Below are positions 11,359 to 50,465 of a DNA stretch of 64,000 nt, piece after piece. The stretch covers positions 5,208,001 through 5,272,000 of the forward strand of contig VRMN01000001.1 in NCBI GenBank assembly GCA_008690995.1, in the 5' to 3' direction. The notes under the pieces are model-generated. The model was given only the letters and a program-made list of their open reading frames with translations. It had not been told where the DNA came from and ran no database searches. Numbering within the stretch: position 1 is the stretch's first letter; the number at the start of each line of letters is the position of its first letter. The position numbers were made by a program, and so were the translations under genes. Origin of the DNA: Porphyridium purpureum. Taxonomy: Eukaryota > Rhodophyta > Bangiophyceae > Porphyridiales > Porphyridiaceae.

Positions 11359-12957
11359 TCACGTGCTGGTGTGTCTCCAGACCTTGAGCATGCCATCCCA
11401 GCCAGCAGTGACAACAGTCCCTGTCTCTGTCGGATGCCATTGCACCGAGCTGCACGCACCGTCGTGCGCTTGTAATGCATGCGCGACTCGCGCGGTCGAC
11501 CAATCCCAGAAGAATAATCGACCGAGCGCATCGCCGCTTGCAAGAAACCGACCATCAGTGGAAAAACAAGGTTCGCATGCGTACCCAGCTGACACGTGTC
11601 CAACAAACGTCTTCCGGGAGTTCTGCTTGAAGCGATCCCGTTGGCGCAACCCATACGTCACAAGTTTGTTGTCCATCGACTGGTACGTAACGGCGGAGCC
11701 AGAAGGATGCACAGCGGCGCTGGGCATCGAAAACATGCTAGGATCAGAGATGTACTTGATTACCACGGGAATGCCCCAGTCCCAAACGCACAGCGTTTTG
11801 TCGTCGCTCGAAGAAATGAATCGCTCACCATCCTCTATGAACACGACCGAGTTCACAGCAGCGAGGTGCTGATTGTACGTCTGGATGGGCACGGACGGAT
11901 CGCTTACGCGAACATCGTGTTGCGTGATTTTCTTGTCCGAACGAGCCACCAGCAACTCATTTGATGCGGTTGACATCGTAGGGCCTGCTCGAAACTTGGC
12001 GCAATAAGCGACGACTTTTGACGATGCTGCCAGCGAAGTCTGCGCGCACCGGATTTTCGATATCGCCTGACCTGTCTCCGTATCCCAGTACCACACCACA
12101 CCGTCAAAGCCCGCGGAAAGGAAATGCGCACTGTCCCCAGCAAAGCAAACATCGCGCACTGCCTTTGCGTGTCCCATGTAGCTGCGGATGCATCTCCCGT
12201 GCGCCGTGTCTGGATGTGTGCTCCACAACTTGACGGTCTTGTCCATCGAGCCTGACAGAAGCAAGTGGCCGTACTCGGGCGCAAAACGGACCGTGGAAAT
12301 GCCTTCTTCGTGCGCGCGAATGGTTGCTGCACAGCGTCGCGGCAAGAAGCTCTGCAGCACTTCTCGTTCCGATACAGCGCGCACTCCTTTCGGTGGCAAC
12401 ATGAATGACCTTCCTTGGTAATCGTATCCACTGAGAGCGCTTCCGTGGTACACACTCCGAGGCAGATTCTTTTCCATGTCCACCCTTGACGAGGACTCGA
12501 CTGCCAAGGCTCCAGCAGGCTGTCCACGTGTGCTTCGAACCTCCTTGGACCCCGCGGCTGCGGCTGCAAGGCGAGCTTCTGGTAGCGCCCTGGTGCGCTT
12601 GCTTTTGTACACTTCATTCCCGGTACTCTCGCCAATGGCATAGCCACGACGGTACGAGTAGAGCTCGCGATGGAACGACGCCGCGGTCACGAGATGACTC
12701 TTCACAACTGCATTCCGCGAATGGGGTTGATCCTCGCCTATGTGGCGTTCTTTCACGTCACTAGACAGTCCTGTTTCAGCAACGGGCTGCTCAGCTTGAG
12801 AACCTACAGAAGGCGCTGCTTCAGGTGCTAGTATCTCTGGATGCTCGAGTCGACTTTCAATCTCGGCAATTTTTGCCCTCTTTGTGTCGTTTGAATCCAA
12901 ACTCCAACTGTCTGTTTCTGAAGCGCTGTCGTATGCCTGCTGCAAGCTTTCCATCAT
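11359..12957 (-). CDS. PRP17: Pre-mRNA-processing factor 17 (Prp17/CDC40), WD40 protein
   Basis: A 532-residue protein from ATG 12957 (a second ATG immediately follows at 12954). Prp17 is a spliceosome factor for the second transesterification step. The N-terminal third is Ser/Glu-rich and diverged. From the conserved SGYDYQGRSFMLPP block on, the match to the family is close: HEEGISTVRFAPEYGHLLLSGSMD, GHAKAVRDVCFAGD, NQHLAAVNSVVF, SSSDDKTLCVWDW, VIKYISDPSMFSMP, and the final WDGMLKVWRHTST. Seven WD repeats can be traced. It is shorter than human CDC40 (579). Its start codon overlaps that of the divergent INSIG-like gene, so each 5' leader must lie inside the other gene. Confidence 0.93.
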   Translation of the reverse strand: MMESLQQAYDSASETDSWSLDSNDTKRAKIAEIESRLEHPEILAPEAAPSVGSQAEQPVAETGLSSDVKERHIGEDQPHSRNAVVKSHLVTAASFHRELYSYRRGYAIGESTGNEVYKSKRTRALPEARLAAAAAGSKEVRSTRGQPAGALAVESSSRVDMEKNLPRSVYHGSALSGYDYQGRSFMLPPKGVRAVSEREVLQSFLPRRCAATIRAHEEGISTVRFAPEYGHLLLSGSMDKTVKLWSTHPDTAHGRCIRSYMGHAKAVRDVCFAGDSAHFLSAGFDGVVWYWDTETGQAISKIRCAQTSLAASSKVVAYCAKFRAGPTMSTASNELLVARSDKKITQHDVRVSDPSVPIQTYNQHLAAVNSVVFIEDGERFISSSDDKTLCVWDWGIPVVIKYISDPSMFSMPSAAVHPSGSAVTYQSMDNKLVTYGLRQRDRFKQNSRKTFVGHVSAGYACEPCFSTDGRFLASGDALGRLFFWDWSTARVAHALQAHDGACSSVQWHPTETGTVVTAGWDGMLKVWRHTST

Positions 12958-13747
12958 GCCTTTCTTCCCCGCAGAATCCTGCACGACATGCTTTGTCACG
13001 GGCGGTCTTCGCCCGGTCCGTCGCCGCTTGTCACAAGTTCGGCCTACCGTTTTGCGATGCTGCTCGCCGAGAATCAGTTCTTATCCTTCGAGCGCGCGGT
13101 GGCTTCGTGTATCGGCACTCAACGTGCTGAGTGGCGCTGCGCTAGGCCCGTGTCTGGACAACTATCACTCGGCATTCGGGCTCTTGCGCTACGTGACGCC
13201 TCTTCACGTGGGTACCAGCGCAGGCGCAATTACAACAACGTGGTGGACGCCCTTGTTGTTTGGGTTTGCCGGGCTGACTATAGGGGGTGGCACATTGGTG
13301 CTTGACATCTTGCTTACCAGGGTCGGAGATCATGACAAGGGCAAGGTGAACATGCCGAAAAGGGCCAGCGTGCCGAACGTTCTGCTGACCATCAGCGCGT
13401 TTAGCGGAATCTACTACATGTCCGGGTATCTTTACGCGTGTGGAATGGACAAGACTGACATCAGTGTGGTTCTGTGGCTGCTCACATTCTTAGAGTTCGG
13501 TTCACTGGTCAGGGCATTGGACGTTTCGCTAATGGCGATGTCTTTGCTTACTATGATCGCCGGGCCAGCCGCCGAAGCCGCGCTCATACACTATGGACAT
13601 CTTTATACTTACGCCGTCACGGACGCCAATGGAGTCATCCCATGGCTGATCTTACCTGTCTACTTTGCCGGTGGCGCGCCTGTCGGTATGCTAGCACGAA
13701 CGTACTGGCATGCGCTGGGAAAAGCGCCCGCAAAGCCTGTAGAATAG
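12956..13747 (+). CDS. INSIG-domain-like multi-spanning membrane protein, probably plastid-targeted
   Basis: A 263-residue protein. ATG 12956 is the only in-frame ATG before the conserved part. The first 55 residues are rich in Arg and Ser with few acidic residues, fitting an organelle transit peptide. The rest has about six hydrophobic segments. LSGAALGPCLDNYHSAFGLL and WWTPLLFGFAGLTIGGG resemble the start of the insulin-induced-gene (INSIG) family as found in plant plastid-type members. FLEFGSLVRALD and the late GGAPVGMLARTYWHAL also fit. Animal INSIG retains SREBP/SCAP and HMG-CoA reductase in the ER; the plant-type role is not established, so no function is assigned. It overlaps the Prp17 start head to head. 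Confidence 0.65.
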   Translation: MPFFPAESCTTCFVTGGLRPVRRRLSQVRPTVLRCCSPRISSYPSSARWLRVSALNVLSGAALGPCLDNYHSAFGLLRYVTPLHVGTSAGAITTTWWTPLLFGFAGLTIGGGTLVLDILLTRVGDHDKGKVNMPKRASVPNVLLTISAFSGIYYMSGYLYACGMDKTDISVVLWLLTFLEFGSLVRALDVSLMAMSLLTMIAGPAAEAALIHYGHLYTYAVTDANGVIPWLILPVYFAGGAPVGMLARTYWHALGKAPAKPVE

Positions 13748-13779
13748 AGGGACCGGACATCTGGATGCGCCGCATCCGT

Positions 13780-13858
13780 CGCAAAAGCCAAGTCGGAGGT
13801 CCCTCCCCCGATCAATCTTCGGTTTGTGAGGGTCTCGTCATGTATCAAGAGCTTTGCG
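13780..13858 (-). promoter_or_regulatory. SECIS element (form 2-like) of the SelL-like gene
   Basis: Begins about 58 nt after the stop of the SelL-like gene on the same strand. Reading the minus strand: helix I CGCAAAGC (13858-13851) pairs with GCUUUUGCG (13788-13780, one bulged U). An internal loop follows, then the core AUGA at 13841-13838 opposite CGAC at 13795-13792, which allows the tandem G-A/A-G pairs. Helix II is GAG/CUC plus CCCUC/GAGGG. The unpaired AAA is at 13825-13823, 12 nt after AUGA. A small apical stem CCG...CGG closes it. This order and spacing is that of a eukaryotic SECIS with the extra apical stem. Folding was by eye. Confidence 0.8.
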
Positions 13859-13915
13859 CACAGCGTGGCGTCGTCCAGAAACTGTAGGGCCTTATGCCCG
13901 TCGAGAAGGGACCTG

Positions 13916-14635
13916 TCATTCGCTACATTCGACGTGATTACCTTGGCCGCGATCATCCGCGCTCGTAAGAGCACTGGCGTGACGACCACCATGGTTCACG
14001 CTGCTGGGGTCACAGAAGGGTGCAGCCTCGTGATCCTCGTCGTTTTCGCTCGCGGATGCTTGCACAGCCTCCAGAATGCGGACGACCGGCACGCGGTCGA
14101 TAGGCGTGCGGCTAGGGTGTGCCAGAACAATATAGAGATTGCTACCAACAACGAAATCACCACCAAGCTGATGTGGATCCTCCTCATGTGCACGATAGCT
14201 GTACTCGCCGGTAAAGATCTTTTTCGCATACCACAGCAGCGTTCCTGGTGACCACGTGTTTACCACAGAGCGACCCATGCCATAACTGGCGTATAGTCCA
14301 CGACCTTCGTCGAAGAGAACCAGAAATCGGTCCTGTGATCCAACGTCGAACTTGGACCACCATTTCTCCACGCGCTGGGCGTTTGCAAACGTGATCAGAA
14401 CGACTCGGTACCCCGACTCTTCGATCTGCTGGCGATGTTGCAACAGCTCCTTCACATGCACTTGTCACGGATATCATTCGAGGTGGCGAAGAAAACACAG
14501 CACCACACCGCGGGGCGCTGCGTTTGACTCATCAAGATTGCCCACCGTCAGATCACGCAGGGTCCACACGCGACCAGAGGCGTCGGGAAGTGCAAACATT
14601 GGAGCCGGGTAACCGGCCACGGCAAAATGCGCCAT
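13916..14635 (-). CDS. SELENOL: Selenoprotein L-like peroxiredoxin-fold protein with a U-x-x-U motif (two in-frame UGA)
   Basis: Read from ATG 14635 with UGA at codons 54 (14476-14474) and 57 (14467-14465) taken as selenocysteine, the frame is open for 239 residues. N-terminal half: GYPAPMFALPDASGRVWTLRDL, then VVLCFLRHLE-U-YP-U-QVHVKELLQH. This is exactly where AhpC/TSA-like (Prx-like 2) proteins have F-x-R-x-x-x-C-x-x-C. The C-terminal half has VVLITFAN, VLFDEGRGLYASYGMGRS, and HQLGGDFVVGSNLYIVLAH...DRVPV, all typical of that fold. The coding match on both sides of the UGAs rules out two chance fragments. SelL is known from aquatic animals and bacteria, with a diselenide between the two Sec residues. 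A SECIS-like hairpin follows the stop. The terminating codon is itself UGA, with UAA eight codons on. Substrate unknown. Confidence 0.88.
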
Positions 14636-48469: not shown

Positions 48470-49674
48470 ACCATGCAAGTCGCCGTATGGCAAGCCGCGT
48501 GCGAATCGGAACTGAAGAGTCGATACTCCAACGCAAAGAAGACGCAGGCTGGCATCGAAGCCGGTCTCGCAGGGTTTACGACCCCAAGCGTCCCAGGCAC
48601 AGCGGCGGGGAGACGGAGGCACGTCAGGCTGTGGGTGCGCTGTCGCGGACGTCCGCCTGGGCCTGCTGGCGGTCGCCGTTTTGCACTTCTTGCCGCTTTT
48701 AGGCACAGCAAGCTACTCGGGTCCAATCCTTTTCCGCTGCGTTTCTCACCCCTTTTATTTTGCGCGCCGCGGCACATACTTGAGTGCGGCGCGCGCGCGA
48801 ATTATGCACGAACAGGGCGACCAGTGTGCGCTGATGACCGCGACGGCGGCTGTGCCAGCGAGAGCCGCTGTCCAAGCCCAGTCTTTTGTCAGCGCTGCAC
48901 AGATGGGTAAAGTTTTGCGGACAGACTTTAGACCTGCGACAAATACAGAATGCTGGAAAGTATCCAGTTGAGTCGGCACGCGCGTTCTCCTTGGACGACG
49001 AGCGCTAGAAAGGCATCTGTGATGTGAATTCAGGCACGTGCTTTCATACCCACGAGGCGCCGTCGCCAGATGCTACAGATGACGCTCATCATCGTTGGAT
49101 GCGGTGACAAATCAGGCTGCATTTGGCCACCGACAAATAAGTCACAGCAAGTTCCCCCCCGCTCACTTCATTCAGTATGCCGTGCCTATGCAGTGAACAC
49201 CTGTGGACCATCATGCTGTAGGCTGTCCAAACGGCTGTTTTAATAAAATAGAGAGATGCAGGGCTCCAGCGGCTCCGCTCCCCTCGCGAGGCGTGTGGAA
49301 GAAGGCTGGCCGTCGCTTGCAGCCGCCAGTCGTTGTTTCAGAGAACGACCCACTGCAGTCCGCCCTGGTCGTCCAGGAAACAAATTGCACAGGAGCACCA
49401 GCCTCTGTGCGCAGTCCGAATGCGGACGAAGAACATCGCGGGAAGATGTGACCGGGAGTGTGTTTGAGACAAGAAGCCACGATCTGCCCGCCATCTCGAG
49501 AACATGTGCGTGCGCGCTCTGAACAAGGATCCCCGCCGCATTACGAACCAGGCTGCACGTCATCTTTCTGTGCTCCAACTGAACCATATCGGGTGTACAG
49601 CGTGATCCCCTAACCACCCACTCATCCAGCACAGCTCCACTGTACCTCTTACTGAACCATCGACCGGAAACCCC
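48470..49674. other. Gene-poor flank right of the LTR unit
   Basis: About 1.2 kb. A plus-strand frame starting right after the duplication (ATG 48473) is open for about 145 codons but shows no family features. It contains CTGTAC at 49640-49645. No gene is claimed. Confidence 0.3.
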
Positions 49675-49981
49675 TGAAACGAAACCGAACCGAAACCCGC
49701 CGGTGAAACCGAAACCGTGAAACGAAACCGAAACGAAACCTAACCCTGAAACCTGAAACGAAACTGAAACCAAACCGAAAAACTGAAACGAAACTGAAAC
49801 TGAAACCTGAAACTGAAACTGAAACCGAAACTGAAACTTACTGAAACCGAAACCGAAACCGAAACGAAACCGAAACCGAAACCGAAACCGAAACCGAAAC
49901 CGAAACCGAAACCGAAACCGAAACCGAAACCGAAACCGAAACCGAAACCGAAACCGAAACCGAAACCGAAACCGAAACCGA
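49675..49981 (+). repeat. (CCGAAA)n hexamer array
   Basis: The left part is degenerate (CTGAAA, CGAAA and CCTGAAA variants). From about 49866 to 49981 there are about 19 perfect CCGAAA units. On the other strand it reads TTTCGG. It gives rise to a long Arg-Phe open frame that is not a gene. It could be a satellite or an internal telomere-like block; the host telomere unit is not known from this window. Confidence 0.85.
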
Positions 49982-50465
49982 ATGCGCCAGATTATGGAGC
50001 GGCACTCGAACGTGCTCTTGAGGTCAAGCGCAAGTTTGCTCGCGGTTTGTCGAAAAGCTGTTTTCCCTTTTTGCGTTCTTATAAACAGACGATGCCGTTT
50101 TAGTAGTAGACGTGTGTGTACTGTCATTGCTTTCGCGTCATAAAAGTATCAACACCACCGAAGCACCAAACATATCACACACGGCGGTGATGGTAGTCGT
50201 CCAAGTGGCGTAGTGGTTGATGGAAAGAAGGGATGGATTGATAAGAACAAGTAGTAGAACGTTCCGGTTTAGTATGGAAATGGTGCGGGGGTAATGTAGA
50301 GATGGAGATAGCGCGGCGTGGGTTGTTGGTTGGTGCTTTGGGTAAGTAGGAAGAATAGCTTGGCGCCGGCGGTGGAAGGTTTGGTAGATGGGGTGAGGGA
50401 AAAAGAGAGAGAGAAAGGAAGGAGGTGAAGGGGAGGAGGGGGGAGCGGGAGGTAACGAGGGGAGA
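49982..50465 (+). promoter_or_regulatory. Promoter region of the S1 gene
   Basis: A purine tract (about 50396-50465, with GAGAGAGAG) runs up to the ATG on the coding strand. GTACTGT at about 50117 is a variant of the CTGTAC/GTACAG element. Confidence 0.4.

Follow-up and report, generated by a model that had tools for sequence, protein, structure and literature searches.

A probable SelL-type selenoprotein gene with two in-frame UGA codons in the red alga Porphyridium purpureum

The window, by which we mean the whole 64,000-nucleotide stretch of Porphyridium purpureum DNA analysed here, very probably carries a real SelL-type selenoprotein gene, as judged from sequence (Table 1). The best overall explanation of the data, which we hold with high confidence, is that two UGA codons in the gene are read as selenocysteine (Sec) by means of one SECIS element, giving a protein with a putative diselenide redox site. 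A SelL-type selenoprotein had been proposed by an earlier sequence-only reading of the region, and the proposal is supported by homology, by the use of TGA in the protein's kin, by selB in the genomes of those kin, by the predicted fold and by a plausible SECIS.

Table 1. Coordinates of the SelL-type gene, its putative Sec codons and adjoining features in the window
Feature	Positions	Strand	Basis or remark
SelL-type coding sequence, 239 aa	13916..14635	minus	ATG 14635, stop TGA 13918-13916; profile and alignment
Putative Sec54 codon TGA, first active-site position	14474..14476	minus	directly precedes helix 55-66 in the predicted model
Putative Sec57 codon TGA, second active-site position	14465..14467	minus	Cys in most relatives
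Gap from SelL stop to stop of convergent ORF, 168 nt, containing the candidate SECIS	13748..13915		ORF coordinates
Candidate eukaryotic SECIS: helix I, ATGA/CGAC core, interrupted helix II, ACAAA, apical hairpin	13780..13858	minus	descriptor scan
Convergent ORF, 287 aa, neighbour outside the SelL system	12884..13747	plus	no Pfam match at E 1e-5

The SelL frame is intronless, and its 239 codons contain no interior stop other than the TGA codons 54 and 57; an in-frame TAA lies 18 codons 5' of the ATG. That the frame is broken solely by two UGA codons, and that these stand at both active-site Cys positions with conserved motifs on either side, had been noticed from the letters alone, and both observations hold. 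When TGA is read as Cys, the two columns contain Cys or TGA in all 25 aligned relatives. The 26-row alignment has 14 invariant columns, situated at the TGA pair and on both sides of it (F48, R50, C/U54, C/U57, H60, D109, Y115, D153, QLGGD at 156–160 and R181). Two TGA codons placed at random would hit exactly this pair about once in 28,000 trials (238 choose 2). At the DNA level, then, the gene has the UxxU feature of the family in the form of two in-frame UGA codons at the active site. The expected truncation by gene callers is also real, since all that a standard ORF list gives of this frame is a downstream piece of 181 aa (13916–14461).

The kinship of the protein is shown by profile as well as by alignment. 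The NCBIfam profile NF040769 (SelL_rel_redox) matches it with 115.4 bits, about 5 bits below the curated cut-off of 120, at E 2.1e-33 over profile positions 21–172 of 173, and all 26 members of the alignment match the same profile at E 0.001 or better. The AhpC/TSA thioredoxin-like fold is indicated by Pfam (AhpC-TSA, 3.6e-10; AhpC-TSA_2, 2.9e-08), by an AlphaFold2 model (mean pLDDT 86.3, pTM 0.80) and by matches of the model in the PDB. In the model, a predicted strand at 43–48 is followed by helix 55–66, before which residue 54 would sit, with residue 57 in its first turn. Thioredoxin-like CxxC sites have the same placement at a helix start. The top PDB fold match is human prostamide/prostaglandin F synthase (TM 0.81 by target length, 20% identity), which was matched in a profile search too, over profile positions 19–182 and alongside many peroxiredoxins; a PDB search with the single sequence of the window protein gave nothing usable. 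The PDB title of the human enzyme names a C44S/C47S mutant, from which we take its CxxC spacing; it is alike in fold, but it has Cys44 and Cys47 where the window protein would have Sec.

On the preferred explanation, the two in-frame UGA codons would be read as selenocysteine, aided by a single 3'-UTR SECIS hairpin, and the product would be an AhpC/TSA thioredoxin-fold protein whose active site, Sec-Tyr-Pro-Sec, stands where a helix begins. Sec54 would be the nucleophile and attack a peroxide or a disulfide. Sec57 may then resolve Sec54 by forming a diselenide, which thioredoxin or thioredoxin reductase might in turn reduce.

Evidence that TGA stands for Sec comes from bacteria. Scanning bacterial and archaeal genomes with a pattern yielded 106 relatives, the best 80 of which were kept (L004–L083). 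The active site was readable in 77 of these 80, as UxxC in 66, UxxU in 10 and CxxC in one; the first position is thus TGA in 76 of 77, and the second is TGA in 10 and Cys in 67. The raw codons at the loci of eight relatives show TGA in seven and Cys in one. Furthermore, selB exceeded the cut-off in 13 of 15 hand-picked host genomes of relatives, as against two of 14 control genomes. The two hosts in which it did not are G011, with a TGA-bearing gene (L036), and G015, which carries the CxxC gene L083. Since TGA occupies the site and most of the hosts tested have selB, we read TGA as selenocysteine in this SelL-related family. By the same sequence evidence, TGA at the active site signifies Sec in the close kin, and the distant kin include Cys forms. 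In a survey of 301 genomes of the Ardenticatena phylum a match was found in 52, and six of the 60 matches listed have E below 1e-20, each with one TGA. The next-best matches listed are mixed (G190 and G269 without a stop), and weaker ones include some with TAA, TAG or no stop.

Several side observations concern the bacterial genes themselves. The pattern-selected sample, which spans Actinomycetota, Chloroflexota, Planctomycetota, Myxococcota and other groups, is overwhelmingly Sec-bearing; its TGA-bearing genes would be truncated by plain gene calling. The Gemmataceae CxxC gene L083, from genome G015, which has no selB over the cut-off, pairs (100/99) with the TGA-bearing Gemmataceae gene L044, and a recent change from Sec to Cys is possible there. 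Among mobile elements, tblastn of the window protein against phages and a protein search of viral contigs gave nothing usable; plasmids gave no usable match at E 1e-5, and relaxing the limit to E 1 brought six weak ones (24–34% identity), annotated as peroxiredoxin-like or redoxin. A DNA pattern, FLRH-TGA-TGA-H, picked out 13 stretches in viral contigs. These include no credible relative (best BLAST E 0.07 among the matches listed; short profile matches at 4e-4 and 2e-3) and were rejected as chance.

The gene had also been credited with a SECIS of its own. This claim stands in part: a hairpin with a SECIS-like core is indeed where it was said to be, beginning 57 nt past the SelL stop, and neither an Rfam match nor the minimum-energy fold supports it. 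Helix I of the candidate pairs 13858–13851 with 13788–13780, the core sets ATGA (13841–13838) against CGAC (13795–13792), helix II is formed by GAG-CCCTC/GAGGG-CTC, ACAAA lies at 13827–13823, and an apical hairpin (CCGA/TCGG) closes the structure. When both strands of the window are scanned with a descriptor, it scores 41.5 against a top score of 44.0 and ranks second of 52; the descriptor was written from general SECIS rules after the hairpin had been viewed and had no known SECIS as positive control. Forty dinucleotide shuffles yielded 0.725 equally good candidates per 128 kb, which corresponds to 0.001 in the gap behind the gene; by the window's own two such hits the expected number there is 0.003. 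The total of 52 candidates, against a shuffle mean of 49, is as expected by chance. Rfam SECIS models found no match anywhere in the window, nor, with E up to 10, in the 501 bases at 13500–14000. The candidate also has flaws: next to the core there is a C-C mismatch, and helix II is interrupted by a 1x2 internal loop. With the core kept unpaired its energy is −20.0 kcal/mol, versus −31.1 kcal/mol for the best fold, and minimum-energy folding favours other structures (z −0.4 to −1.6). Because Rfam is negative, the candidate count is that of chance and other folds are preferred, the case for this SECIS is moderate and rests on form and place.

The missing Rfam match, together with the fact that the gene is read from its DNA sequence, is what speaks for a pseudogene, that is, a decaying CxxC or Sec gene in which the TGA codons are nonsense mutations or sequencing errors. 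We consider this very unlikely. The 239 codons have no further interior stop, the alignment with kin continues in one frame with conserved columns intact on either side, and the TGA codons fall exactly on the two active-site columns, the first of which is TGA in nearly all readable relatives.

A reading that would extend, rather than replace, the two-Sec protein is given similarly little credence. The terminal TGA might sometimes be read as Sec as well, which would add Sec-QVPSRRA and produce, at the C terminus, a Cys-Ser-Glu-Sec (CxxU) motif that might reduce the diselenide. Consistent with this, the stop is a TGA preceded by ECSE, a TAA follows after seven more codons, and the core of the candidate SECIS lies 74 nt past the terminal TGA. 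However, nothing in the aligned bacterial kin corresponds to the tail of 50 aa, which is poorly predicted from residue 201 on (block pLDDT below 60 in the AlphaFold2 model). Among the 83 of 90 aligned bacterial rows with a readable tail, 49 end in TGA and 10 have Cys at that place; a conserved C-terminal resolving Cys was accordingly rejected. In one alignment TGA was treated as Cys at every position, so that several bacterial rows extend a few residues beyond their terminal TGA.

That TGA encodes another amino acid (Cys or Trp), genome-wide or locally, would leave the frame just as open, as any TGA-sense code would, but we regard it as negligible: TGA terminates five of the 19 other tabulated ORFs of the window (the WD40 ORF, TspO, ERO1, SRP68 and one without a Pfam match), and in the WD40 ORF Pfam matches reach residue 544 of 546 before it. 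The code therefore looks standard, and general recoding of TGA was rejected.

By Pfam, the neighbours in the window are eukaryotic (coatomer beta, oxysterol-binding protein, ERO1 and SRP68), and from the long open frames we infer a compact, intron-poor genome. The convergent ORF downstream of the SelL-type gene encodes hydrophobic stretches, and its 5' end overlaps the opposite-strand WD40 ORF at 11359–12999. Elsewhere on the minus strand, two similar tandem ORFs (14–1078 and 1369–2313) match Sulfotransfer_3 weakly (2.7e-06 and 7.1e-05, the latter below the cut-off), and a 6-base tandem repeat of 46.5 copies (49705–49982) lies within an ORF of Arg-Phe runs (49240–50127).

The protein family is already known; the newer point is where the window copy falls in its tree. 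Out of 110 bacterial loci (L004–L113), 90 cleared the thresholds of E 1e-3 and roughly 130 aligned residues, with UC in 74, UU in 12 and CC in four (L004 and L084 are the same gene). In the tree of 90 rows, whose bootstrap had not settled, the window protein belongs to a set of eight (100/98), the other seven being from Chloroflexota and all UxxC, and its sister is an Ardenticatena gene (94/82). For the motif tree, 37 of 91 rows (window included) were removed by hand, namely near-copies, L004 as a duplicate and four rows that were long or odd, so that two of the four CC rows are gone; 54 rows remained and the two site columns were masked. The sister pair (97/83) and the set of eight (99/98) recur in it, and when the sister row is left out the window protein remains within a starred set of seven (97/97). 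Its branch is long (1.6–1.9).

On the unrooted 54-row tree, UU requires six changes, five of which are forced by the starred branches; without a root the changes have no direction. A single clade of the 13 UU rows was rejected (p 1.4e-5), as was a clade of the window protein with nine UU rows of the SAR202/Dehalococcoidia type (p 9e-5), the latter test having been chosen after the tree was seen. The rejection of a single UxxU clade means that, among the sampled proteins, the double-Sec site has undergone more than one change. We tentatively suggest, as somewhat less than an even proposition, that the gene came from a Chloroflexota-type Sec-x-x-Cys donor, that its resolving Cys became a second Sec independently of bacterial UxxU, and that the diselenide site arose convergently several times. 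Because the trees cover the window protein and bacterial rows, with animal and algal SelL absent, bacterial transfer is a lead and not a result.

How does the protein compare with known systems? The bacterial NF040769 Prx-like UxxC/UxxU proteins share with it the same domain, an R-H-x-x-U-x-x-C/U-x-x-H site and QLGGD, at up to 45% identity over 185 columns. They differ in that its nearest relatives among them are UxxC and in that the aligned ones show no counterpart of its C-terminal tail. Bacterial Sec insertion is not known to use a 3'-UTR SECIS. Prx-like selenoproteins with UxxC and UxxU are listed in PMC2398784, PMC9312934 and PMC13188914, and the latter two list both motifs for prokaryotes. 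SelL (SELENOL) of animals, some algae and bacteria likewise has two Sec two residues apart in a Trx-like redox domain; here the animal and algal proteins are likened to ours by described features, not by sequence kinship. PMC3316567 and PMC3473315 contain tables of SelL from fish and invertebrates, and the former reports that two Sec are inserted with a single SECIS. SELENOL, with its Trx-like redox domain, is among the algal selenoprotein families named in PMC7539508, so that calling the gene part of an 'overlooked system', as was first done, is too strong. AhpC_b of Thalassiosira oceanica, as described in PMC7539508, is similar in being an AhpC/TSA-domain algal selenoprotein with prokaryotic Cys kin and dissimilar in its UxxC motif.

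For red algae, PMC7539508 reports very small selenoproteomes and counts Porphyridium purpureum among the organisms searched. SBP2, EFsec, SecS, SPS2 and tRNA-Sec are reported from Cyanidioschyzon with no selenoprotein, and SelO from Porphyra ESTs (PMC2375036). In the literature found on red-algal selenoproteins, algal selenoprotein L and UxxU, no title or opening of an abstract names a red-algal SelL.

With the gene described here, a compact eukaryotic genome gains a well-supported two-Sec protein, and a group with, according to PMC7539508, very few reported selenoproteins gains a two-Sec candidate. Among the sampled kin, the second site has repeatedly changed its state (Cys or Sec). Comparing UxxC and UxxU relatives should thus make it possible to test what a diselenide offers over a selenenyl-sulfide.
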